A stretch of DNA of 34,177 bases from an uncultured Acidobacteriia bacterium (GTDB taxonomy: Bacteria > Acidobacteriota > Terriglobia > Bryobacterales > Bryobacteraceae). A program made the position numbers and the translations under genes. The notes beneath the pieces are model-generated. The model saw only the letters and a program-made list of their open reading frames with translations. It searched no databases and was not told the DNA's origin. Numbering within the stretch: position 1 is the stretch's first letter; the number at the start of each line of letters is the position of its first letter. Positions 19,006-29,109 of this stretch are shown here, piece by piece. The stretch is from contig CAIYDY010000215.1 of NCBI GenBank assembly GCA_903925015.1, positions 1 to 34,177 of the forward strand. The letters run 5' to 3'.

Positions 19006-20325
19006 TCAGGACCTTCCAATCTGATCGAGGATCACGCCCAATATTCGCCGGAACTCCTCCGGCGTGGAAGCGTCGAAAATCCGGGCACCGAGCGGCTCCA
19101 CGGAGCGCTCCAAGTCATCGGCGGGCATCGGCATCCTCGGAGCCTCATTCATGACCGGTGGGCGCATGCCCTGGCGCGCACGGCCCGGATATCCCCGCCC
19201 GAATCCGCTGGGTCCCCCACGGCCCACGCCGGGACGGAAAACCAGATTGCGTGTGCGTATGTAGAAGAGCCGCCGGTCGGGGTTGGGCGGCAGCGGCTCC
19301 GAAGGCACCGGCTCCTGATTGTCGAAAAAGGCGGGTCCTGAGATCACAATCACCACGTTGGTTCCATCCGTCCTCCGGTTCAGACGACGTTCCACCTCGT
19401 CCCGGAAAAACTGTCGCATCTTCCATTCGCCCGCCAACGTCGCAACGTCCACCAGACCGGGCTGCATGGCCTTGAAGAACTCCGCAAACCGGGGCCAGTC
19501 CAGCTTCCGGACATCGGTTTGCTCCACCGCGACCTTGTGGTGCGTCAGATCCAGCAACGCGGCGTCCATGGTTCCGTTTGCGAGCCGGATGTTCGACAGA
19601 ACCTTCAAGGCTGGAACCGCCAGCGCCATGTTGCGGCGCATCGCGGTCAAAAGGCCGGAATTGCGCTCGGACGGCGTCGTGTTCACCAGAATCTGCAGGT
19701 GGACCGGCCTTGAAGTCTTGAGCTCCAGGCTGGGCGTGCACTCAATCGAGGGCAGATACCAGACATCCGGCGGCTCGGTGATACCGGGGACGAACTCCAC
19801 TGTGGGCAGACCAACCCAGGACGCCGGGAGCGGTTCGGACTTCAATGGCGCAACCAAGACCTTGCGGATCGCAAAACTGTGCTTCAGGCTCCGCGGATCG
19901 CAGATCGCAATGGCGACCTGGTACTCGCCAGGCAGCACAAATGCGTGTTCGGTGATGTAGAGGTCCTGGGCCGCAATGCCCGCCCGCAGCTTGTTCAAGT
20001 CGATAACCGTGTGGTCCTGGCGCACAACCCCCGCGGAATCAGTGATCTGGACCAAAACCAGGAAATCGCCTTGGTCGCGGCGCGATTCGAGTTCGCGGCC
20101 GTCCACCCGGACAGAGATGCGCAAAACCAACCTCTGGTGGGAGGAGAGGGCGGCAGCTGGAATTTCCAAGCCCCACCGCAGCTGGGAGGTTCGCCCCTCC
20201 TCAACCCATTTTGCGAAAGGGACGCGGGCGAATTCGGCATCGGCCTTTTGAACGGACGCCGCACCGGAAATTGCTCCGGGAATTGCCAGAAGCGTGCCGA
20301 ATGCGAATTGTAGGAATCGGCGCAC
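19006..20325 (-). CDS. Exported protein of unknown function (tandem paralog 1)
   Basis: First of two tandem paralogs. The frame is open to 20463, but a GTG at 20325 (or 20328) begins a good signal peptide, VRRFLQFAFGTLLAIPGAISGA, giving about 439 residues, close to its sister's 422. Matching blocks are PFAKWVEEG, LSSHQRLVLRISVRVDG, PGEYQVAIAICDPRSLKHSFA, VHLQILVNTTPSERNSG, TNVVIVISGPAFFDNQE and the C-terminal EFRRILGVILDQIG. It has a Gly/Arg/Pro-rich insert (GVGRGGPSGFGRGYPGRARQG) near the C-terminus that the sister lacks. The function is unknown. The acidobacterial context suggests a lineage-specific secreted protein, possibly with a VWA-like half. The start is tentative, as no ribosome-binding site is evident. 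Confidence 0.72.
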   Translation of the reverse strand: MRRFLQFAFGTLLAIPGAISGAASVQKADAEFARVPFAKWVEEGRTSQLRWGLEIPAAALSSHQRLVLRISVRVDGRELESRRDQGDFLVLVQITDSAGVVRQDHTVIDLNKLRAGIAAQDLYITEHAFVLPGEYQVAIAICDPRSLKHSFAIRKVLVAPLKSEPLPASWVGLPTVEFVPGITEPPDVWYLPSIECTPSLELKTSRPVHLQILVNTTPSERNSGLLTAMRRNMALAVPALKVLSNIRLANGTMDAALLDLTHHKVAVEQTDVRKLDWPRFAEFFKAMQPGLVDVATLAGEWKMRQFFRDEVERRLNRRTDGTNVVIVISGPAFFDNQEPVPSEPLPPNPDRRLFYIRTRNLVFRPGVGRGGPSGFGRGYPGRARQGMRPPVMNEAPRMPMPADDLERSVEPLGARIFDASTPEEFRRILGVILDQIGRS

Positions 20326-20436
20326 CACAGCCACAGGGTACACCAAACTCCACTCAACCGGGTTATGAAGGAAATGTGGCTCCAGGACCACCCCACGCAT
20401 GGCAACGAACCGGAATCCCCAGCCAGCGCATCCAAC

Positions 20437-20442
20437 TATACT
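20437..20442 (+). promoter_or_regulatory. Putative -10 box for the yqhQ-prfA operon
   Basis: TATACT followed by GAAAGG. A transcript would begin near 20449, putting the GAGG ribosome-binding site (20451-20454) and the TTG start at 20463 in a very short leader. The -35 region is weak. The box lies in the gap between the divergent exported-paralog gene and yqhQ. Confidence 0.35.
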
Positions 20443-20462
20443 GAAAGGTTGAGGCTCCCCCA

Positions 20463-21470
20463 TTGACTCTCCGCAATTTCCTGCGCTTGTTCACCCACGT
20501 CCAGATGCTCCCGATTCTTGAAGGCGGCGAGGCCACCCTTGTCGGCGGGCAGGCCGTGATGGAGGGCGTCATGATGCGGGCCCCCCACAGTTATTGTGTT
20601 GCCGTCCGCAAGCCCGATGGCGGAATCGCCATGGAGGAATTGCCCATTGTCAGTCCCGCCCAAAAACACGCTTATTTCAAGTGGCCTGTTTTGCGTGGAA
20701 TCGGCGTCCTCGGCCAAGCAATGTCCCTGGGCATGAAGGCGCTCCAGTTTTCCGCCAACCATGCGCTGGCTGAAGAATCGGACGCCAAGACCGAAGGCAA
20801 GGAACCGGAAAAGCCCATCTCGAACTGGATGATGGGCGTCCAGCTCCTCTTCTCGTTGGCATTTTTCCTGTTTGCCTACAAATTTGTCCCGCTGAAGCTG
20901 ACGACAATGGTCTCGAAGTTCGTCCCGGCCCTGAACACGCCCGGCTTCGAGGGCCAAGTGCTATTCAACCTTGTGGATGGCCTCATCCGCCTGACCATCT
21001 TTATTACCTTCATGTGGCTGATGTCGCTGACCAAGGATATGCGCCGCATGTTCGAATACCATGGCGCGGAACACAAGGTTGTCTTCAATTTCGAATCCGG
21101 CCGACCGGTCTCAGTCGCCAACGCACAGACATTTGTCACCTGGCATCCCCGCTGCGGCACCAGTTTCATGTTCGTCATCATGTTGATCTCGATGATCCTG
21201 TACATGTTCATCCCGGTCCAGGGCATGCTGGCCAAAATGGCGATTCGGATCGCCCTGCTGCCGGTGGTGGTGGGCATCAGCTACGAGTTGATCCGGTTTG
21301 CCGCACGGAAGCGCGGGTCGTTCCTCTCGGTACTCACGGCTCCGGGGCTTTGGACCCAGCGGATTACGACCAAGCCGCCGTCGGACGACCAAGCGGAAAT
21401 CGCAGTGCGCGCCCTTGAGGGCGCAATGGATTTGGAAGCCCGCCAAGGCGGGGAACTGGTGATCGCGTAA
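20463..21470 (+). CDS. YqhQ-like DUF1385 membrane protein
   Basis: A 335-residue integral membrane protein of the DUF1385/YqhQ family, whose biochemical role is not established. Landmarks are VGGQAVMEGVMMRAP (27-41), membrane segments at about 123-141 and 178-194 and a pair near 240-280, plus the conserved EYHGAEHKVV and WHPRCGTSFMF motifs, whose His/Cys residues suggest metal binding. The start is TTG at 20463 with GAGG eight bases before it. ATG 20505 is an alternative that would still keep the GGQAVMEG motif but lacks a ribosome-binding site. It ends directly against the prfA ATG, a pairing seen in several phyla. Confidence 0.88.
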   Translation: MTLRNFLRLFTHVQMLPILEGGEATLVGGQAVMEGVMMRAPHSYCVAVRKPDGGIAMEELPIVSPAQKHAYFKWPVLRGIGVLGQAMSLGMKALQFSANHALAEESDAKTEGKEPEKPISNWMMGVQLLFSLAFFLFAYKFVPLKLTTMVSKFVPALNTPGFEGQVLFNLVDGLIRLTIFITFMWLMSLTKDMRRMFEYHGAEHKVVFNFESGRPVSVANAQTFVTWHPRCGTSFMFVIMLISMILYMFIPVQGMLAKMAIRIALLPVVVGISYELIRFAARKRGSFLSVLTAPGLWTQRITTKPPSDDQAEIAVRALEGAMDLEARQGGELVIA

Positions 21471-22550
21471 ATGCAGTACGGACAGAAACTCGACCAGATC
21501 GAGAAGCACTTTGAAGAAATGACCCAGCAGATGGCCGACCCGGCCATCATCTCCGACGGCGATCAATACCGCAAAGTCTCCAAGGCGCACAGCGACCTTT
21601 CCGAGATCGTCGGCAAGTACCGCGAATACAAGCGCGTCGACTCCCAGCTGGCCGACGCCCGGCAGATGCTGGGCGAGTCCGACCCGGAAATGCGGGAAAT
21701 GGCCGCGATGGAAGTCGCGGAACTGGAACCGCAACTTACCACGATCGACGATGAGTTGAAGTTCCTGCTGCTGCCAAAGGACCCGAACGACGACAAAGAC
21801 GTGGTGCTCGAAATCCGCGCTGGCACCGGCGGGGACGAGGCAACGCTGTTCGCCTACGAAGTCTTCCGCATGTACATGCGGTATGCGGAAACCCGGCGCT
21901 GGAAGGTGGAAGTCACCTCGTCGAGCGAATCTTCGGTGGGCGGCCTCAAGGAAGTACTGGCGCTCGTCAGCGGCAACAAAGTCTATAGCCGGATGAAGTA
22001 CGAAAGCGGCGTGCACCGGGTCCAGCGTGTCCCGGCGACGGAAACCCAGGGCCGCGTCCACACCTCGGCGATCACGGTGGCGGTGCTGCCAGAAGCGGAC
22101 GAAGTCGAAGTCAAGGTGGAGGAAAAAGATATCCGCGTGGATACCTTCTGCTCTTCGGGACCAGGCGGGCAGTCGGTGAACACGACCTACTCCGCGATTC
22201 GCATCACCCACTTGCCGACAGGCGTGATCGTTTCGTGCCAAGACGAAAAGTCGCAGATCAAGAACCGCGCCAAGGCGATGCGGGTGCTGCGTTCGCGGTT
22301 GTACGAGCTTGAGCTGGAGAAGCAGCAGGCCGCGATCGGGGCTGAACGAAGGACGATGGTCGGCACCGGCGACCGCAGCGAAAAGATCCGAACGTATAAC
22401 TTCCCGCAGAACCGTCTGACAGACCACCGGATCGGCCTGACACTGCATCAGTTGGACTTGGTCATGGAAGGCCGCTTGGACCAGATCATGGACGCGCTTA
22501 CGAATTTCTACCAGACCGAGAAGCTGCGGCTGGAGGGCCAGGCGGCGTAG
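21471..22550 (+). CDS. prfA: Peptide chain release factor 1
   Basis: RF1 recognises UAA and UAG stop codons and triggers peptide release on the ribosome. The protein is 359 residues, the normal length. The stop-codon-reading tripeptide PAT is at 188-190, which marks RF1 rather than RF2 (SPF), and the catalytic GGQ is at 232-234. Gln234 is the residue methylated by PrmC, whose gene lies 1.85 kb downstream. The ATG follows the yqhQ stop codon with no gap. In many bacteria prfA and prmC are neighbours; here two foreign-looking genes separate them. Confidence 0.97.
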
Positions 22551-22562
22551 GCTGGACACTAT

Positions 22563-23657
22563 ATGAGCCTCGCACTCGACAGTCTGACGATCCATCGCTT
22601 CCGAGGCCTTCGGGACATGACCTTCGAGGGACTGTCGGCTGTGAATGTTCTTGTAGGTGGAAATAATTCGGGGAAGACGAGTGTTCTGGAGGCTATTGCG
22701 CTCTATGCCAGGCCCACCGAAATTCGGACATGGGTAAGGATTGCACAACAACGAGATCTAAGGCCAAGCCAAGAATTAGAAGCTTCTGAGTACGTTTGGC
22801 TGTTTGGTGGGAACCCGGATCAAAGCGCTCAAGATGTATACCCAATAGACCTTGAAGGAACAATGTCGGGTCGCGACCACACAGTTGTAGCGGGCTGCGT
22901 CCCGATCGCTGGTACCGTCCTGGAGCCAAGCTACATCCGCGATGACGAAGGGGAAGTGGTCGATGCCATAGAACGTCAGTTGGCCCGTGAAGGCGTGGAA
23001 CTAAAAGTTCGCATCGACAACACGCCCGACGAGGTGTTCACAATCTGGCTGGACGCACGGGAACGTATCAAGAAGCAAATACCGTCGCCCAATTGGTTAC
23101 CGACCCGAACGATAACGCCATTCGCTCACCGGGTTGAGAGACCGCAAATAAGGGATCTATCCGAGGCGACCAAGCTATTCCGCAAAGAAGAGATCAGCAA
23201 ACTCCTGAGCGAGATAGATCCGCTGATCGTCAGCTTGGAGATTCTTTCTTCCGACGGGAAGCGTGCCAGCCTGTCAGTCCAGCACAAAGACCTTGGCATC
23301 GTCCCAATCAGTATGTTTGGCGATGGCATTAGGCGAATAGTGGCGATGGCACTGGCAATACCGTCTGCGAGCAATGGAGTCCTGCTGATCGACGAGATTG
23401 AGACGGCAATCCACACGTCCGCGTTGTCGAAGGTGTTCTCGTGGTTGGTGGCTTCATGCAGACAGTACAACGTGCAACTATTTGCCACAACCCACAGTCT
23501 CGAAGCGCTTGACGCCATCATGGGTTACCCGCAGCCTAACACCGAAGAGTTTACGCTCTACAAGATTTTTCCAGAAGGCAATCCAGACCGGGTGCAGCGC
23601 ATGGATGCAGACCTCGTGCGCCGACTTCGCGCAAACCGCGGCCTGGACGTAAGGTAG
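22563..23657 (+). CDS. AAA/ABC-type ATPase, OLD/AriA-like, of a putative defence pair
   Basis: A 364-residue SMC/ABC-like ATPase. Walker A is GGNNSGKTS (32-40), preceded by the IHRFRGLRDMTFEGL strand pair typical of AAA_15/AAA_21 proteins. The ABC-like signature is SMFGDGIRR (250-258), Walker B is VLLIDEIE (273-280), and the switch histidine is in TTHS (309-312). It lacks the C-terminal TOPRIM domain of full-length OLD nucleases; the next gene supplies one separately. This matches the architecture of PARIS (AriA plus AriB) and split OLD systems, in which the ATPase holds or activates a nuclease on sensing phage. It begins 12 bp after prfA and ends 4 bp before its partner. Codon use is visibly more A/T-rich than in prfA and prmC, suggesting acquisition by transfer. 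Confidence 0.85.
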   Translation: MSLALDSLTIHRFRGLRDMTFEGLSAVNVLVGGNNSGKTSVLEAIALYARPTEIRTWVRIAQQRDLRPSQELEASEYVWLFGGNPDQSAQDVYPIDLEGTMSGRDHTVVAGCVPIAGTVLEPSYIRDDEGEVVDAIERQLAREGVELKVRIDNTPDEVFTIWLDARERIKKQIPSPNWLPTRTITPFAHRVERPQIRDLSEATKLFRKEEISKLLSEIDPLIVSLEILSSDGKRASLSVQHKDLGIVPISMFGDGIRRIVAMALAIPSASNGVLLIDEIETAIHTSALSKVFSWLVASCRQYNVQLFATTHSLEALDAIMGYPQPNTEEFTLYKIFPEGNPDRVQRMDADLVRRLRANRGLDVR

Positions 23658-23661
23658 CGGG

Positions 23662-24405
23662 ATGGAACACGGATACCTCGTCGTCGAAGGGCCGCACGAC
23701 GTCGAATTCGTCGGTCGGCTGCTGAAAATGGCTGACCTTTCCCGCGTCAAATTCAGAAAAGACTTGGATTCCTACTGGCACCCAATCTTGCCGACTACTT
23801 GGCCAATAAACGACGATCTTCTCAAGCGCGTGGCGGTACCTGTTTTTTTTCAAGGCCCGACCCACTCACTGGCGGTAAGCAGCGCCGGAGGCGACTCGCG
23901 TATTGCAGAAGACATAGAGGAGATGCTCTCCCGGCTTAAGGATCCGCACGCCATCGGCGCCCTCCTCGACGCTGACGAGAAGCATGACCCCAAGACGCGA
24001 TTCAGCAGTTTTGTTCAAAGCCTTGGCAAGAGATTACCGCACCTAGCGATGCCTGTGGAGCCGGGCTGTGTATCTGGTACCAAACCGAGAGCGGGTATTT
24101 ACGTATTGCCCGACAACGCCAACCAAGGGGCACTCGAGGATCTCCTTGTGGATTGCGCCGAGCACTTCGCGCCCAGTCTCCTAGGACATGCGAGAGCGTT
24201 TGTCTCCAACGCCGAGCCAGATTTCGAAGAGAAGAAGCACTCCTCGCGAAAGAAGGCGCTGGTCGGCTGCATCTCGAACGTGTACAAACCAGCCAAGTCC
24301 ATCCAAACATCGATACAAGACAACAATTGGGTCTCTCAAGATACCGTCCGGCTCCCCAGAATCGCGGCCTTCGATTCATTCCTAAAGAATCTTTTCAACC
24401 TGTGA
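23662..24405 (+). CDS. DUF3226-type TOPRIM protein, probable nuclease partner
   Basis: A 247-residue protein with a TOPRIM-like core. YLVVEGPHDVEFV carries the acidic Glu9 after the first strand, and GALLDADE gives the D-x-D pair (Asp103, Asp105). YVLPDNANQGALEDLL (148-162) is characteristic of DUF3226, and the C-terminus ends in a helix, FDSFLKNLF. TOPRIM domains of this kind are metal-dependent nucleases in OLD and PARIS systems. Pairing with an AAA ATPase predicts a two-component abortive-infection module; neither activity nor trigger can be read from sequence. Its stop TGA (24403-24405) overlaps the GTG start of prmC. Codon use is again more A/T-rich than that of its housekeeping neighbours. 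A run of eight T bases occurs at 23842-23849. Confidence 0.82.
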   Translation: MEHGYLVVEGPHDVEFVGRLLKMADLSRVKFRKDLDSYWHPILPTTWPINDDLLKRVAVPVFFQGPTHSLAVSSAGGDSRIAEDIEEMLSRLKDPHAIGALLDADEKHDPKTRFSSFVQSLGKRLPHLAMPVEPGCVSGTKPRAGIYVLPDNANQGALEDLLVDCAEHFAPSLLGHARAFVSNAEPDFEEKKHSSRKKALVGCISNVYKPAKSIQTSIQDNNWVSQDTVRLPRIAAFDSFLKNLFNL

Positions 24406-25277
24406 CCGGATTTCTCACCGTCCGCGAGGCCCTTGGCCAGGGTCGGGATCTGTTGGAACGGGCTGGAATTCAGGCACCGCGCCTCAACGCGGAAATCCTT
24501 CTCGGACAGGCGCTGTCCGTTCCCGGGTCCCTCGGCTTCCGCCCGGATGCGGCCTGGTTCTACGCGCATTCCGACCGTGCCTTGCGCGAGGTGGAATGGA
24601 TCCACTACGGTCGGTACCTCCACCAGCGGCTGGCGGGCAAACCGACCCAGTACATAACCGGGCGCCAGGAATTCTACGGGCGGGAATTTGCCGTCACCCC
24701 CGACGTCCTGATTCCCCGCCCCGAGACCGAACTTCTGGTCGAATGCGCGTTGAAGCTGGGGTCGCGGTCGGGGATCGCGGTCGATGTCGGCACGGGATCA
24801 GGGGCGATCGCGATCACGCTGGCGCTCGAAGGCTGGTCCGGCCCCGTTCTGGGCATCGATATCTCAGCCCGCGCCCTGGAAATAGCGCACCGTAATGCGC
24901 GGAAACTGGGCGCGAAAACCGGGTTCGTCCATGCGGACCTGCTCAGCCCCTTCGCCGACCATACCCTCGACGCCGTCGTCTCCAATCCCCCATACATTGC
25001 CGAAGCTGACCGGCCCAGCCTTCAGCGCGAGGTTGTAGCCCACGAGCCCGGCCTGGCCCTTTTCGGCGGTACCGACGGCTACGGAATCTACTGCCGTCTC
25101 ATCCCGCAAGCCCTCCACGCCCTGAAGCCAGGCGGACTCCTCGCCATGGAAATTGGCATTGGACAGGCAGCAGAACTATCACAAATGCTGGCAGGTTGGA
25201 ACGACATCCAAACGTTCCCGGACCTGGCTGGCATTCCACGAGTCCTGACGGCCAGAACTCCCGCCAATCGCCGTTAG
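24402..25277 (+). CDS. prmC: Peptide chain release factor N5-glutamine methyltransferase
   Basis: PrmC (HemK) methylates the Gln of the GGQ motif in RF1 and RF2, raising release efficiency. The SAM-binding loop DVGTGSGAIAI is at 128-138 and the catalytic NPPY at 195-198; ITGRQEFYGREFAVTPDVLI and IPRPETE are also family hallmarks. The frame is open upstream to 24153, but the GTG at 24402 gives 291 residues and a correct N-terminus (VREALGQGRDLLERAGI). That GTG overlaps the stop of the TOPRIM gene (GTGA), so translation of prmC is probably coupled to the inserted gene. Confidence 0.95.
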   Translation: MTGFLTVREALGQGRDLLERAGIQAPRLNAEILLGQALSVPGSLGFRPDAAWFYAHSDRALREVEWIHYGRYLHQRLAGKPTQYITGRQEFYGREFAVTPDVLIPRPETELLVECALKLGSRSGIAVDVGTGSGAIAITLALEGWSGPVLGIDISARALEIAHRNARKLGAKTGFVHADLLSPFADHTLDAVVSNPPYIAEADRPSLQREVVAHEPGLALFGGTDGYGIYCRLIPQALHALKPGGLLAMEIGIGQAAELSQMLAGWNDIQTFPDLAGIPRVLTARTPANRR

Positions 25278-25297
25278 CGCTAAAGCACAACTTTCGA

Positions 25298-25303
25298 TAT
25301 ACT
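25298..25303 (+). promoter_or_regulatory. Putative -10 box for the second TonB-dependent gene
   Basis: TATACT followed by GGA, 30 bases before ATG 25333. A weak TTAGCG lies 18 bp upstream and could act as a -35. AAGGGG at 25312-25317 is a possible but distant ribosome-binding site. Confidence 0.35.
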
Positions 25304-25332
25304 GGACCACCAAGGGGTAGTTTTCAACACGC

Positions 25333-28300
25333 ATGAAATTCGCTGCGCGCCTAGCCGCCATTTCCATCCTTAGCGCCATTTGCGCCTTCGCCCAGAGCGG
25401 TGGAGCCACGCTCCAAGGGACCGTCAAAGATGCCACCGGAGCCGTCATGCCCGGCGTCAAAGTCAGCATCACCCACTTGGATACCGGTATTAAGTCCGGC
25501 ACGGTTTCGAACAATGACGGATTTTTCGTCTTTCCGCCGGTCCAGATCGGCAGCTACCGCGTCCGCTGCGAAGCCAAAGGCATGAAGGCGTGGGAGGAGA
25601 CCTTAGTCCTGGCCACCGGGCAACTGGCAGACATCAACCCTCGGCTCACACTGGGTGACGTAAACCAGACCGTTGAAGTCACCGACACGGCACCGCTGGT
25701 GACAACGACCGATCCGACCGACGCAACCACGCTTGACCAGCAGCGCATCAAGGAACTCCCGGTAAACGGTCGCGACCTCAACACGCTGATCTCCGACGTC
25801 ACCCCGGGCATCGAATACGGCGGCAATGTGAACGACGGCGCGCGCACCGGCGGCATGATGACCTACTCGACGAACTACTCGCAGGACGGCGCTTCCGCCA
25901 ACAACCGCGAGTTCGGCGGTTCCACCGGACTCCAGGGCCTCGAATCAATCGGCGAGGTCCGGATCGAGACCAGCACCGGCAACGCGAAATCGTCCTCCCC
26001 CGCTTCCATCATCATTACGACCCGTGGCGGCACCAACGCCTACCACGTTTCGGGCTACGAAACCGCACGCAACAACTGCTGCGGCGTCGCCAAGCACCTA
26101 CAGGATTTCAATCCCAACGGCACCCCCTTCCAACTGCCCAAGCTGATCCGCAACGAATTTGGCGGCTCCTTCGGCGGCCCGGTCGTCCTCCCGTCGTTCG
26201 GGTTGAACGGGAAAAAGTTCTACGACGGCCACAACCGGACCTTCTTTTTCGTCTCACGTGAAGCCGTCTACCTGCGCCAGGGTGTAGTCGGATCCTACTC
26301 CGTGCCCACCGCGGCGCAACGCAAGGGCGACTTCTCAGGCCTCGAAACAAGCACCGGGCTCCCGATCACGCTCTACGACCCCAACACCAGCGCCATCCAG
26401 ACCATCAACAACAGGCCGATCACCCTCCGCACCCCGTTTCCGAACAACACCATCCCGATCAGCCGTGAGAGTCCGCTCGCCAAGTACATGTACGGGATTA
26501 CGCCGATGCCGAACGACATCACGGAACCCAACATCACGGCGAACCTGAAGTACGCCTTCGGGAGCAGCGGCCTCCCCAACCAGAACAACAACCCGATGAC
26601 GATCCGTGTGGACCACCGGATCTCGCAGAAGGACAACTTCTTCGCCAAGGCCAACTGGGGCAAGCAGATTTCGTGGTTCCTCGGAACCAGCGGATCCAAC
26701 GGTGTACCCACAGCCAACTACGAGGCCAACGTCACCTACCTGCCGATGCAGAGCTGGGGTGCGGCACTGAGCGACACACACGTCTTTTCGACCAGTTTCT
26801 TCGTGGAAAACCTGCTCAACAAGACTTGGCAAACCACCAAGACCATCGCGGGCCCGCCGGATGCCCAGAAGGAATTCGCCACCAGCCTCGGGCTCCCCAA
26901 CCCCTACGGGCAGATCGGATTCCCCAACATCACTTCGATCGGATTCAGCAACTATATTGAAGGGGACAACCGCAGGTTCCTCTCCAGCGGCATCATGAAT
27001 GCCGCCCAAAACTACACGTGGATCAAGGGCCGCCACACGTTCCAATTCGGCTGGGCTTGGCACGACGAAGTGCAGCGGCTGCAGCCCGACCAAGGCAATA
27101 TCTCCGGTTCCGCGACGTTCAACAGTCTTGCAACATCCCTGGAGAGTTCCACCAGCGGATCCACAACTACGCCAACCACGGTTGGGAACACCGGTTATGA
27201 CGCAGCAAACTTCTTCCTCGGCGATGCCGCTACCTATAGCGTGTACCTCTCGCGCGGCGTGATGAAGGTCTCCCAAAAGACGATGGGCAACTACTTCCAG
27301 GACAGCTGGAAGGTGAGCGGACGCCTAACACTGACCCCGGGCCTCCGTTGGGACATCAACCCCGCATGGAAGGACAGCAACCACCTGCTGAATACCTTCG
27401 ACACGAAAAACCACAAGGTCGTCTTGTCCGAATCCGTTGATTACTACCTGCAGCACGGTGCCACGACCCAACAGGTGATCACCAACTTCCAGAAGGTGAA
27501 CGTACAATTTGAGAGCGCCAAGGACGCCGGCCTTTCCTCCAACCTGTTCCCGAACAACTTCTACGACTTCGGCCCGCGCATGGGAGCGGCCTACCGCTTC
27601 TTCGACGGCAAGAAGGCCTTTGTGTTGCGCGGCGGCTATGGACTCTATATTTCCGGCCTGCCCCTGCGCACACTCCTGGCACAGTTCTCCAGCCAGTTGC
27701 CCTTCAAGGCGACGTTCCAGTACAACCCGAACAGTTCCGCCTACAGCCCCGACGCGACCAACAGCTACCTGTTGACCCACGCCTCGCCGATCATTGCCGG
27801 ACTCAACTCGCAGAACCCCGTCGACATCACCAACCCCAATGCGCTGGGCGTTGGCCAGAGCGTGACCGGCCTCGCCACAGAGCTGCCGAGCACCAAGGTC
27901 CAGGAGTGGAACGCGGAAATCGAGAAGGATCTGGGGCACCAGATGGTGTTCCGGATCAAGTACAGCGGCAAACACGGGTCCAACCTCGACCAATTGGACA
28001 ACATCAACCCGCAGATGACGGACTACAACTGGTACACCACCACCCATCTGCCCACTCCGACCGGCACCTACGCCAACACGGCCCGCCGCATCTACGACAC
28101 GACTGCGTACACCACCATCAACCTGCTTTCCAAGACCGGCGTCAGCAACTCGGAAACCGGCACCGTGGAGATCGACAAGCGGTTCAGCAAGGGACTGCAA
28201 TTCCAGTGGTTCTATACGCTGACAAACGCCTACCGGCTGGCGGGCAATTCGTTCCGCGACGGCCTCGGCACGATCGCCGCCCAATATGCGCCGGGCTCGG

Positions 28301-29109
28301 TGCCCACGGACCCCGCCGCGCTGAACCACTTCCTGAACTACGCCCGCGACACCGGCGTGCCCCAGCACCGGATGCGCTGGAACTGGATTTACAACCTGCC
28401 GGTGGGTAAGCGCCAAGCGTTCCTGCATAACGCTCCGAAGTGGCTCGACACCATAGTCGGGGGTTGGACCATGACCGGCAGCGGCACGCTGGTGAGCTCC
28501 TGGTTTGCGCTCGACGCCTCCAACTGGAATTTCACCGACGCCGGTGTCCAGACCTACGGCAAGTCGGTGCCGATCCAGGACTGCACAGCGACCCCGGCCA
28601 CGGCCAAGACCAGCGCCGAGGCGCGCTGCTACTCGGCCTACCTTTACTGGAACGGCTATATCTCGCCCAGCCGCATCAACAGCAAGAACGCCAACGGCGT
28701 GCCGAACGGCTACATCGGGATTCCGGCCAACTACAAATCCGCTGTGACACCGCTGATTCCCTACGGCACTCCCGGTGCCGTGACCGGCGACTATGACACC
28801 AACGTGGTCTACATCCCGCTTTCGAACGGCGTCACCCAGCGGGTGGCGTACGACAACGGGCTGAATCCGTTCCGCAACCAGTACCGGCTTGGACCGTTCA
28901 ACTGGATCATGGATTCCTCCATGCGCAAGACGTTCAAGCTGACCGAGAAGCGGGGTACGCTGCGGGTGGGCATCGACGTGTTCAACGTGTTCAACAACCA
29001 GGGAATGAACGCGCCCGGCAGCAACGGCGTGGTGACCATGAACCGGTCGTTCAACCCGTATGGATTCCAACCCCGGCAGGTGCAGGGGAGTTTCCGGTTC
29101 GAGTTCTAG
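25333..29109 (+). CDS. Oar-like TonB-dependent receptor with carboxypeptidase-regulatory domain
   Basis: A 1258-residue outer-membrane protein. The signal peptide MKFAARLAAISILSAICAFAQ is followed by a carboxypeptidase-regulatory domain (TLQGTVKDATGAVMPGVKVSI, about 26-110). A plug-like region follows (LPVNGRDLNTLI; TRGGTNAYHVSGYE; LIRNEFGGSFGGPVVLP), then a long barrel with FFFVSRE and FNVFNNQGMNAPGSNG, ending QGSFRFEF with a terminal Phe. It is the same class as the gene at 827-4198 but only distantly similar. The last 339 bases are repeated at 32997-33335, showing that a close relative once lay just downstream. The substrate is unknown. Confidence 0.9.
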   Translation: MKFAARLAAISILSAICAFAQSGGATLQGTVKDATGAVMPGVKVSITHLDTGIKSGTVSNNDGFFVFPPVQIGSYRVRCEAKGMKAWEETLVLATGQLADINPRLTLGDVNQTVEVTDTAPLVTTTDPTDATTLDQQRIKELPVNGRDLNTLISDVTPGIEYGGNVNDGARTGGMMTYSTNYSQDGASANNREFGGSTGLQGLESIGEVRIETSTGNAKSSSPASIIITTRGGTNAYHVSGYETARNNCCGVAKHLQDFNPNGTPFQLPKLIRNEFGGSFGGPVVLPSFGLNGKKFYDGHNRTFFFVSREAVYLRQGVVGSYSVPTAAQRKGDFSGLETSTGLPITLYDPNTSAIQTINNRPITLRTPFPNNTIPISRESPLAKYMYGITPMPNDITEPNITANLKYAFGSSGLPNQNNNPMTIRVDHRISQKDNFFAKANWGKQISWFLGTSGSNGVPTANYEANVTYLPMQSWGAALSDTHVFSTSFFVENLLNKTWQTTKTIAGPPDAQKEFATSLGLPNPYGQIGFPNITSIGFSNYIEGDNRRFLSSGIMNAAQNYTWIKGRHTFQFGWAWHDEVQRLQPDQGNISGSATFNSLATSLESSTSGSTTTPTTVGNTGYDAANFFLGDAATYSVYLSRGVMKVSQKTMGNYFQDSWKVSGRLTLTPGLRWDINPAWKDSNHLLNTFDTKNHKVVLSESVDYYLQHGATTQQVITNFQKVNVQFESAKDAGLSSNLFPNNFYDFGPRMGAAYRFFDGKKAFVLRGGYGLYISGLPLRTLLAQFSSQLPFKATFQYNPNSSAYSPDATNSYLLTHASPIIAGLNSQNPVDITNPNALGVGQSVTGLATELPSTKVQEWNAEIEKDLGHQMVFRIKYSGKHGSNLDQLDNINPQMTDYNWYTTTHLPTPTGTYANTARRIYDTTAYTTINLLSKTGVSNSETGTVEIDKRFSKGLQFQWFYTLTNAYRLAGNSFRDGLGTIAAQYAPGSVPTDPAALNHFLNYARDTGVPQHRMRWNWIYNLPVGKRQAFLHNAPKWLDTIVGGWTMTGSGTLVSSWFALDASNWNFTDAGVQTYGKSVPIQDCTATPATAKTSAEARCYSAYLYWNGYISPSRINSKNANGVPNGYIGIPANYKSAVTPLIPYGTPGAVTGDYDTNVVYIPLSNGVTQRVAYDNGLNPFRNQYRLGPFNWIMDSSMRKTFKLTEKRGTLRVGIDVFNVFNNQGMNAPGSNGVVTMNRSFNPYGFQPRQVQGSFRFEF
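28771..29109 (+). repeat. Upstream copy of a 339-bp direct repeat (TonB receptor 3' end)
   Basis: This segment aligns without gaps to 32997-33335. By eye there are roughly 30 mismatches (about 90% identity), nearly all at third codon positions. Only three residues differ, counting from the PGAVTGDYD block to the terminal Phe. The two copies are in the same orientation and flank the whole minus-strand glycosyltransferase cluster. Confidence 0.9.

Follow-up and report, generated by a model that had tools for sequence, protein, structure and literature searches.

In several described systems an ATPase is paired with a TOPRIM domain. Class 4 of the OLD family is defined by an ABC ATPase and a TOPRIM in separate adjacent genes (partial text of PMC12796447), and PARIS is defined with a DUF4435 TOPRIM partner, AriB (partial text of PMC9122126). 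In PARIS, AriB is sequestered by an AriA hexamer, and a phage anti-restriction protein sets it free to cleave tRNA (PMC11455837; partial text of PMC12409363). AbiL is likewise a pair of AAA and TOPRIM_OLD proteins, and toxicity assays in E. coli on two AAA:TOPRIM_OLD pairs found the TOPRIM protein neutralised by its ATPase; the pairs examined in that study include TOPRIM_OLD D60 of S. agalactiae (partial text of PMC10440598). For Bp OLD, the residues of two-metal cleavage are given as E400, E404, D455, D457, T506, E508 and K562 (partial text of PMC6755086). One archaeal OLD protein, Cran1, has a role in the cell cycle, apparently not in defence (partial text of PMC12796447).

We analysed here a window of 34,177 nucleotides (the whole stretch of DNA) from an uncultured Acidobacteriia bacterium, in which an ATPase gene and the gene of a TOPRIM nuclease candidate, hereafter M38A and M38B, lie between the release-factor genes prfA and prmC (Table 1).

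Gene content and composition of the locus

Table 1. Features of the window around the cassette.
Feature	Position	Strand	Evidence
M38A: ABC-type (AAA_21) ATPase, 364 aa	22563..23657	+	ORF; PDC-M38A (model PDLC04608) E 7.2e-70; Pfam
M38B: DUF3226 TOPRIM nuclease candidate, 247 aa	23662..24405	+	PDC-M38B (model PDLC04614) E 5.6e-12; Pfam; model
prfA, full-length gene of release factor 1, bounding the cassette on the left	21471..22550	+	PCRF + RF-1
prmC (release-factor glutamine methyltransferase), full length	24402..25277	+	PrmC_N + MTS
Low-divergence block against the sister species G017	22548..25931	.	7 differences in 3384 bp

Reading frames, Pfam matches and residues all agree with the initial annotation, which had described an ATPase and a DUF3226 protein, with their motifs, between prfA and prmC. 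M38A matches AAA_21 (PF13304, 86.2 bits for a cut-off of 27), and M38B matches DUF3226 (PF11536, 85.7 bits, same cut-off), the sole family retrieved for it at E <= 1; Pfam thus gives the partner as DUF3226 and not DUF4435, as had been proposed. The Pfam scan of the flanks also identified a DUF1385 protein gene upstream, alongside prfA. The genes are separated by 12 bp (prfA to M38A) and 4 bp (M38A to M38B), and the GTG start of prmC (24402) is overlapped by the TGA stop of M38B (24403-24405). From this arrangement, prfA, M38A, M38B and prmC apparently form one tightly packed operon.

The GC content of the cassette is 0.54 for M38A and 0.55 for M38B, with a GC3 of 0.60 and 0.65, against 0.58-0.64 (GC) and 0.73-0.81 (GC3) for the DUF1385 gene, prfA and prmC. 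The two genes are more A/T-rich than their operon mates, as had been claimed; however, mechanical ORFs at 29-33 kb of the window have a GC3 of 0.50-0.64, so that the low G+C content of the cassette is not extreme for the window. When the cassette ends (22501-22640 and 24331-24450) were compared for direct repeats, the longest common word was 8 bp, hence no clear attachment site or target-site duplication. A promoter scan of 20300-25400 returned 0 promoter-like sites for 1.8 expected, and nothing usable was found among the 5 terminator-like sites of this interval (5.4 expected).

Predicted structures, conserved residues and relatives of the two proteins

M38A carries a Walker A motif (residues 32-40), a signature (250-258), a Walker B motif (273-280) and an H-loop, TTHS (309-312), with a beta-rich insert at about 95-162. 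Residues G32, N34, K38, G253, D277, E278, H311 and S312 are each identical in 39/39 aligned relatives. Comparison of the M38A profile with solved chains gave matches to PtuA, Ts OLD (6p74), AriA, GajA, RecF and Rad50. Fold searches with the predicted structure (pLDDT 88.7) mostly retrieve heads of the PtuA, Rad50 and SMC types, which superpose with Z scores of 17-19 among the 50 fold matches listed. AriA, GajA and full-length OLD are absent from the 50 matches listed in either fold search; as all three are recovered by the sequence profile, their absence does not speak against kinship.

The M38B sequence contains E9, D103, D105, a PDN motif (150-152) and an LED motif (158-160). Its structure was predicted with a pLDDT of 92.4 and a pTM of 0.90, and the closest solved structure is PH0156 (2p62; Z 16.4, rmsd 3.6 over 215). 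The TOPRIM domains of Xanthomonas and Burkholderia OLD proteins follow at Z 9.5-10.4, unrelated folds starting from Z 6.7; by Foldseek, the match is clear for PH0156 only (E 3.9e-7), that to the OLD domain being no better than E 0.012. This check of the second protein supports a predicted TOPRIM fold. The split OLD/PARIS-like architecture of the initial annotation, an ATPase devoid of TOPRIM followed by a TOPRIM in the next gene, is borne out by Pfam, the predicted model and the structure comparison.

We then examined the candidate active site in an alignment of 44 M38B sequences, among them the nearly identical one of G017. E9 and D103 occur in all (44/44 each) and K198 in 43/44, whereas Asp and Glu share the other positions: 13 (35 D, 9 E), 105 (38 D, 6 E) and 159 (39 E, 5 D). 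The predicted TOPRIM fold of M38B thus comes with the invariant Glu and, allowing for the six E at D105, the DxD. E9, D13, D103, D105, E159 and K198 occur in the same order as E400, E404, D455, D457, E508 and K562 of Bp OLD, and the E+4 and DxD spacings agree; in this mapping, which follows sequence order and not superposed coordinates, T506 has no clear counterpart. M38B is predicted to be an OLD-type TOPRIM with candidate two-metal residues. A histidine at position 12 is found in 25/25 rows of the longer subclade of M38B; among the 19 rows outside it, 18 carry D and one carries N.

Both proteins are held in PADLOC-DB 2.0.0 (2023) as PDC-M38A and PDC-M38B, a phage defence candidate, so that the proposal of a distinct, hitherto unrecognised defence type is not supported in that form. 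Residues 1-364 of M38A align to positions 1-366 of the 367 of its model, that is, over the full length; M38A also matches an AriA model (E 7.9e-26) and AbiLi (E 7.3e-38). For M38B, six M38B models besides PDLC04614 match at E <= 1, and the best model gives 43.9 bits, with a best stretch at profile positions 176-263 of 281. Full-text literature searches, with most subscription papers and bioRxiv preprints outside their scope, found none naming 'PDC-M38' or 'DUF3226'.

The association of the two genes was examined among relatives. A pattern-seeded scan of a species-genome collection with the M38B alignment, which is not exhaustive, gave 48 loci; 47 of them (all but the G017 copy) were combined with the window, making 48 loci for the pair survey. 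A B frame is present in 46 of the 48, L107 and L111 having none (contig edge or short match), and in 46/46 an A frame lies directly upstream on the same strand, with an A-B gap of -160 to +6 bp. Distances among A and among B proteins are strongly correlated (Mantel r 0.91, n=37 pairs; 0/2000 permutations as high), also inside the long subclade (r 0.85, n=24; 0/2000). Three partner proteins of the close clade were tested, and all match M38B models.

The A tree divides into a short clade (13 rows) and a long clade (24 rows, window included), with a split support of 100/99, and each clade spans several phyla. The long clade covers Pseudomonadota, Planctomycetota, Cyanobacteriota, Bacillota, Myxococcota, Thermodesulfobacteriota and one Acidobacteriota row besides the window. 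Phylum labels are clustered, with 12 changes for a least possible number of 11 and a shuffled mean of 21.2. The scatter of phyla that frequent transfer between them would give had been expected but is not seen in this tree, the changes being near the minimum; transfer is argued instead from patchy presence and differing loci. One Acidobacteriia row is nested in Planctomycetota. As a separate observation, an Acidobacteriia bin (L095) and a Kuenenia bin (L101) have near-identical M38A genes, with end branches of 0.012 and 0, and the gene that follows also appears to be the same in both, the result of either a recent transfer or a mis-binned contig.

At the level of the phylum, DUF3226 matches were found in 11/297 sampled genomes (10 over the cut-off), and in 1/14 control genomes, that of Methanocaldococcus jannaschii. 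Eight of the 11 matches besides that of the window (L032-L038, L043) directly follow an ATPase-like frame; L039 and L041 gave no clear frames. Finally, L042 (260-1945) is a single frame of 561 aa, possibly a fused relative, with an ATPase at the N-terminus and a VEG-type segment at the C-terminus, whose DUF3226 match of 21.8 bits falls short of the cut-off.

The prfA-prmC junction in relatives

The pair was detected (E <= 1e-6) in 4/200 sampled genomes of the family, the window's own included, and in 2/19 genomes of the genus. It is patchy and not always present in relatives. The other three positive family genomes hold an A-B pair with neither prfA nor prmC in the flank, of about 1.5 kb at most, and the site is therefore no fixed partner of the pair.

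Junctions were surveyed in 140 family or genus genomes with both prfA and prmC among the matches listed. The two genes lie on one contig and strand in 130 of them; in the remaining 10 they are unlinked, nine times on different contigs and once far apart. Linkage is thus common, not universal. In G002, a C-terminal fragment of prfA is found at a contig end beside prmC (C41:212407-212517), with a full prfA on another contig. Junctions of at most 150 bp make up 122 of the 130 (median 23.5, measured between matched ends), which upholds the claim that the location inside a release-factor operon is unusual. Three junctions measure 173-371 bp and five exceed 1 kb: those of G000 and G017 (M38 cassette), G018, G046 and G404. 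In G046 the space holds a sensor kinase of 1028 aa, and in G404 the gene of a GT87 glycosyltransferase, neither of them defence-like. With carriers so few in family and genus, and most junctions so tight, the M38 cassette is an acquired insertion between prfA and prmC.

PrfA is 100% identical to that of the window in G017 and 95% in G018, the next-closest genome by this protein. In G018, prfA and prmC are 2878 bp apart, and the junction (L045:6750-9647) carries three antisense genes, whose products are a GmrSD_N (DUF262) protein, a HEPN protein of the MAE_28990 type and a C5-cytosine DNA methylase. The first matches the NsnA and PD-T4-2_A models of PADLOC, and the methylase matches DrmMII and type II methylase models; no PADLOC model was matched by the HEPN protein at E <= 1e-5. 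The methylase frame overlaps the 3' end of prfA by 65 bp. DNA similarity between the window and G018 stops at the end of prfA (window 22549) and restarts near the start of prmC (24411). Among the three genomes closest by PrfA, unrelated defence-like cassettes have thus entered the junction on at least two occasions. Two events are suggestive of a hotspot, not proof of one.

We also compared the window with its sister species G017, to which it is 96.8% identical over 14.7 kb. Synonymous divergence (dS) is 0.057 for the DUF1385 gene and 0.14 for prfA, and only 0.0076 for M38A, 0.0058 for M38B and 0.004 for prmC, about one-twentieth of the prfA value. Differences extend to 22547, immediately ahead of the prfA stop codon, and become numerous again from 25932; the block in between has 7 differences in 3384 bp, versus 32 in 1077 bp for prfA (Fisher p 3e-14). 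Other low-divergence stretches are present at about 19.9-21.9 kb and 27.4-29.1 kb, so that the region is a mosaic, in which the cassette block is not unique. Between 25932 and 27362, divergence from G017 rises inside the 25333-29109 frame, and it falls again near 27.4 kb, a jump that we read as mosaic inheritance along the contig. The simplest reading of the block itself suggests a recent homologous exchange of the cassette-plus-prmC segment between the two species. The recent arrival that had been claimed is therefore upheld as regards transfer and, for its recency, only as exchange between two sister species within a mosaic region.

Function of the pair and comparison with known systems

We favour, with moderate confidence, a horizontally acquired cassette of the PDC-M38 type that would work like a split OLD/PARIS system, by abortion of infection. 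By analogy, we infer the following steps, from expression and complex formation to restraint, trigger, substrate and defence outcome. Its place in the packed prfA-prmC operon would give the pair constitutive expression, with control acting after translation, as suits a system that its own ATPase keeps silent. As long as the cell is healthy, M38A would assemble with M38B and restrain the TOPRIM nuclease. M38B would then be released or activated by a cue from the phage, or when M38A senses an altered nucleotide or DNA state. Two metal ions would be held by E9, D13, D103, D105 and E159, with the help of K198, and M38B would cut DNA or RNA (tRNA, as AriB does, being one possibility), so that infection aborts. 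Restraint and sensing are attributed to M38A, and cleavage to M38B, because PARIS and the AAA:TOPRIM_OLD pairs behave in this way.

The pair may alternatively be a selfish toxin-antitoxin module, with M38B as nuclease toxin and M38A as antitoxin, kept by addiction and devoid of a dedicated antiviral role. We consider this unlikely, though it is the best of the alternatives. AAA:TOPRIM_OLD pairs do act so in E. coli assays (partial text of PMC10440598), a commentary counts PARIS itself among such systems (PMC11455837), and A-B pairing is consistent. However, deletion of either PARIS gene was non-toxic and abolished defence, which the authors interpreted as excluding a toxin-antitoxin system (partial text of PMC9122126).

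Plasmids bear on this point. With a query from the shorter clade (L112), 143 plasmid records were retrieved, including 135 from Klebsiella; one Klebsiella and one Acinetobacter record were examined. In the 3.84-kb Klebsiella plasmid (L130, NZ_CP040727.1), about 1.75 kb is taken up by an ATP-binding protein directly followed by a 210-aa DUF3226 protein, so that a related pair makes up nearly half of a tiny replicon, as addiction could explain; the order is the same in the Acinetobacter plasmid. Both Klebsiella proteins match M38 models, the ATPase scoring higher with AbiLi. Such plasmid pairs independently support the view that the wider family has a selected function. In the window's own M38B subclade, by comparison, no match was found in 50,697 phage records, in 72,556 plasmid records (none either with the L094 query) or in a pattern scan of viral contigs. 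A chromosomal operon site and a subclade lacking plasmid matches fit plasmid addiction poorly. The same absence from phages, plasmids and viral contigs counts against the defence reading, as many defence systems differ in this respect. The modest Foldseek value of the OLD domain, the clustering of phyla in the A tree and the cell-cycle role of Cran1 weigh on the same side.

The neighbourhoods of relatives were also inspected. From 160 mechanical ORFs around long-clade pairs, 97 neighbours were picked by hand and scanned, with matches to 132 PADLOC and 136 Pfam families. PADLOC models (DndC, DrmMI, HEC-01 and others) were hit 1-3 times each among the matches listed (25/132 families), and Pfam families were mostly ordinary (25/136 listed); the link to defence islands is thus weak for the window's subclade. 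From sequence reading, several lone pairs lie near core-type genes: the pair of L085 is flanked by Sua5/YrdC-like and RsmD-like genes, which we take to be tsaC/Sua5 and rsmD, and long-clade pairs of L088 and L090 are near topoisomerase I genes, presumably topA.

Such neighbours would suit a nuclease with a housekeeping or regulatory role, linked to the release-factor operon and acting in repair like RecF/Rad50, in RNA processing like RNase M5, or in the cell cycle like Cran1. The fold kinship of M38A with Rad50/SMC heads, the clustering of the A tree by phylum and the precedent of Cran1 (partial text of PMC12796447) point in the same direction. Against this, 196/200 family and 17/19 genus genomes have no match to the pair, and the three other positive family loci hold it away from prfA and prmC (about 1.5 kb of flank), making a housekeeping role improbable. 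Least of all do we believe in a neutral, decaying passenger stranded between prfA and prmC: presence is patchy and 2 of the 3 M38B differences from G017 alter an amino acid, but three differences have no statistical weight, both frames are intact in both species with active-site residues kept, and the M38B-prmC overlap is clean.

Beyond the split OLD/PARIS-like immune function that we favour, a broader proposal has two parts. The DUF3226 branch might be a mechanistically separate class of split-OLD immunity, with its own trigger and substrate, and the acidobacterial prfA-prmC junction might be an exchange slot for small defence cassettes, swapped through homologous recombination within the core genes on either side, with no integrase involved. 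Taken together, this is doubtful, and we put it forward as speculation. If the exchange-slot part is true, M38 occupies the slot in two species and the GmrSD_N/HEPN/methylase trio in the next. A core-gene junction holding two unrelated defence-like cassettes would be a simple natural example of spread with no evident mobile element, and the site of the M38 cassette is unusual and possibly reusable. As for the candidate family PDC-M38/DUF3226, it gains a structural and catalytic footing, with a predicted OLD-type TOPRIM, a candidate two-metal set and an ATPase of its own.

Compared with known systems, the window pair shares with PARIS (AriA and AriB) and OLD class 4 the separate, adjacent genes for ATPase and TOPRIM. 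It falls outside the definition of PARIS by its TOPRIM partner, DUF3226 in place of DUF4435 (AriB), and solved AriA chains have 464 aa against 364 aa, with a beta-rich insert, for M38A. The proteins of OLD classes 1 and 2 (Bp OLD, Xcc OLD, Ts OLD, GajA) resemble M38B in their TOPRIM and have the same ordered catalytic residues, but the window pair is split over two genes; moreover, in class 2 (Gabija) the GajB helicase adjoins, whereas the window pair is adjoined by prfA and prmC. With AbiL (AbiLi and AbiLii), the likeness is on the side of M38A, which matches AbiLi; the AbiL partner, AbiLii, is RloB-like, and M38B matches PDC-M38B models only (E <= 1), in a library that may lack an AbiLii model. 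PH0156 of Pyrococcus horikoshii (2p62) aligns with M38B through most of the extension at residues 28-72, but is an uncharacterised archaeal protein with 16% identity. Finally, the window pair is like PDC-M38 in the matches of both proteins, in the A-then-B order, on the same strand, and in adjacency, M38B differing by a moderate match and by belonging to the longer subclade with H12. The type of pair is already catalogued as the candidate defence system PDC-M38, and the unusual part is its insertion site.
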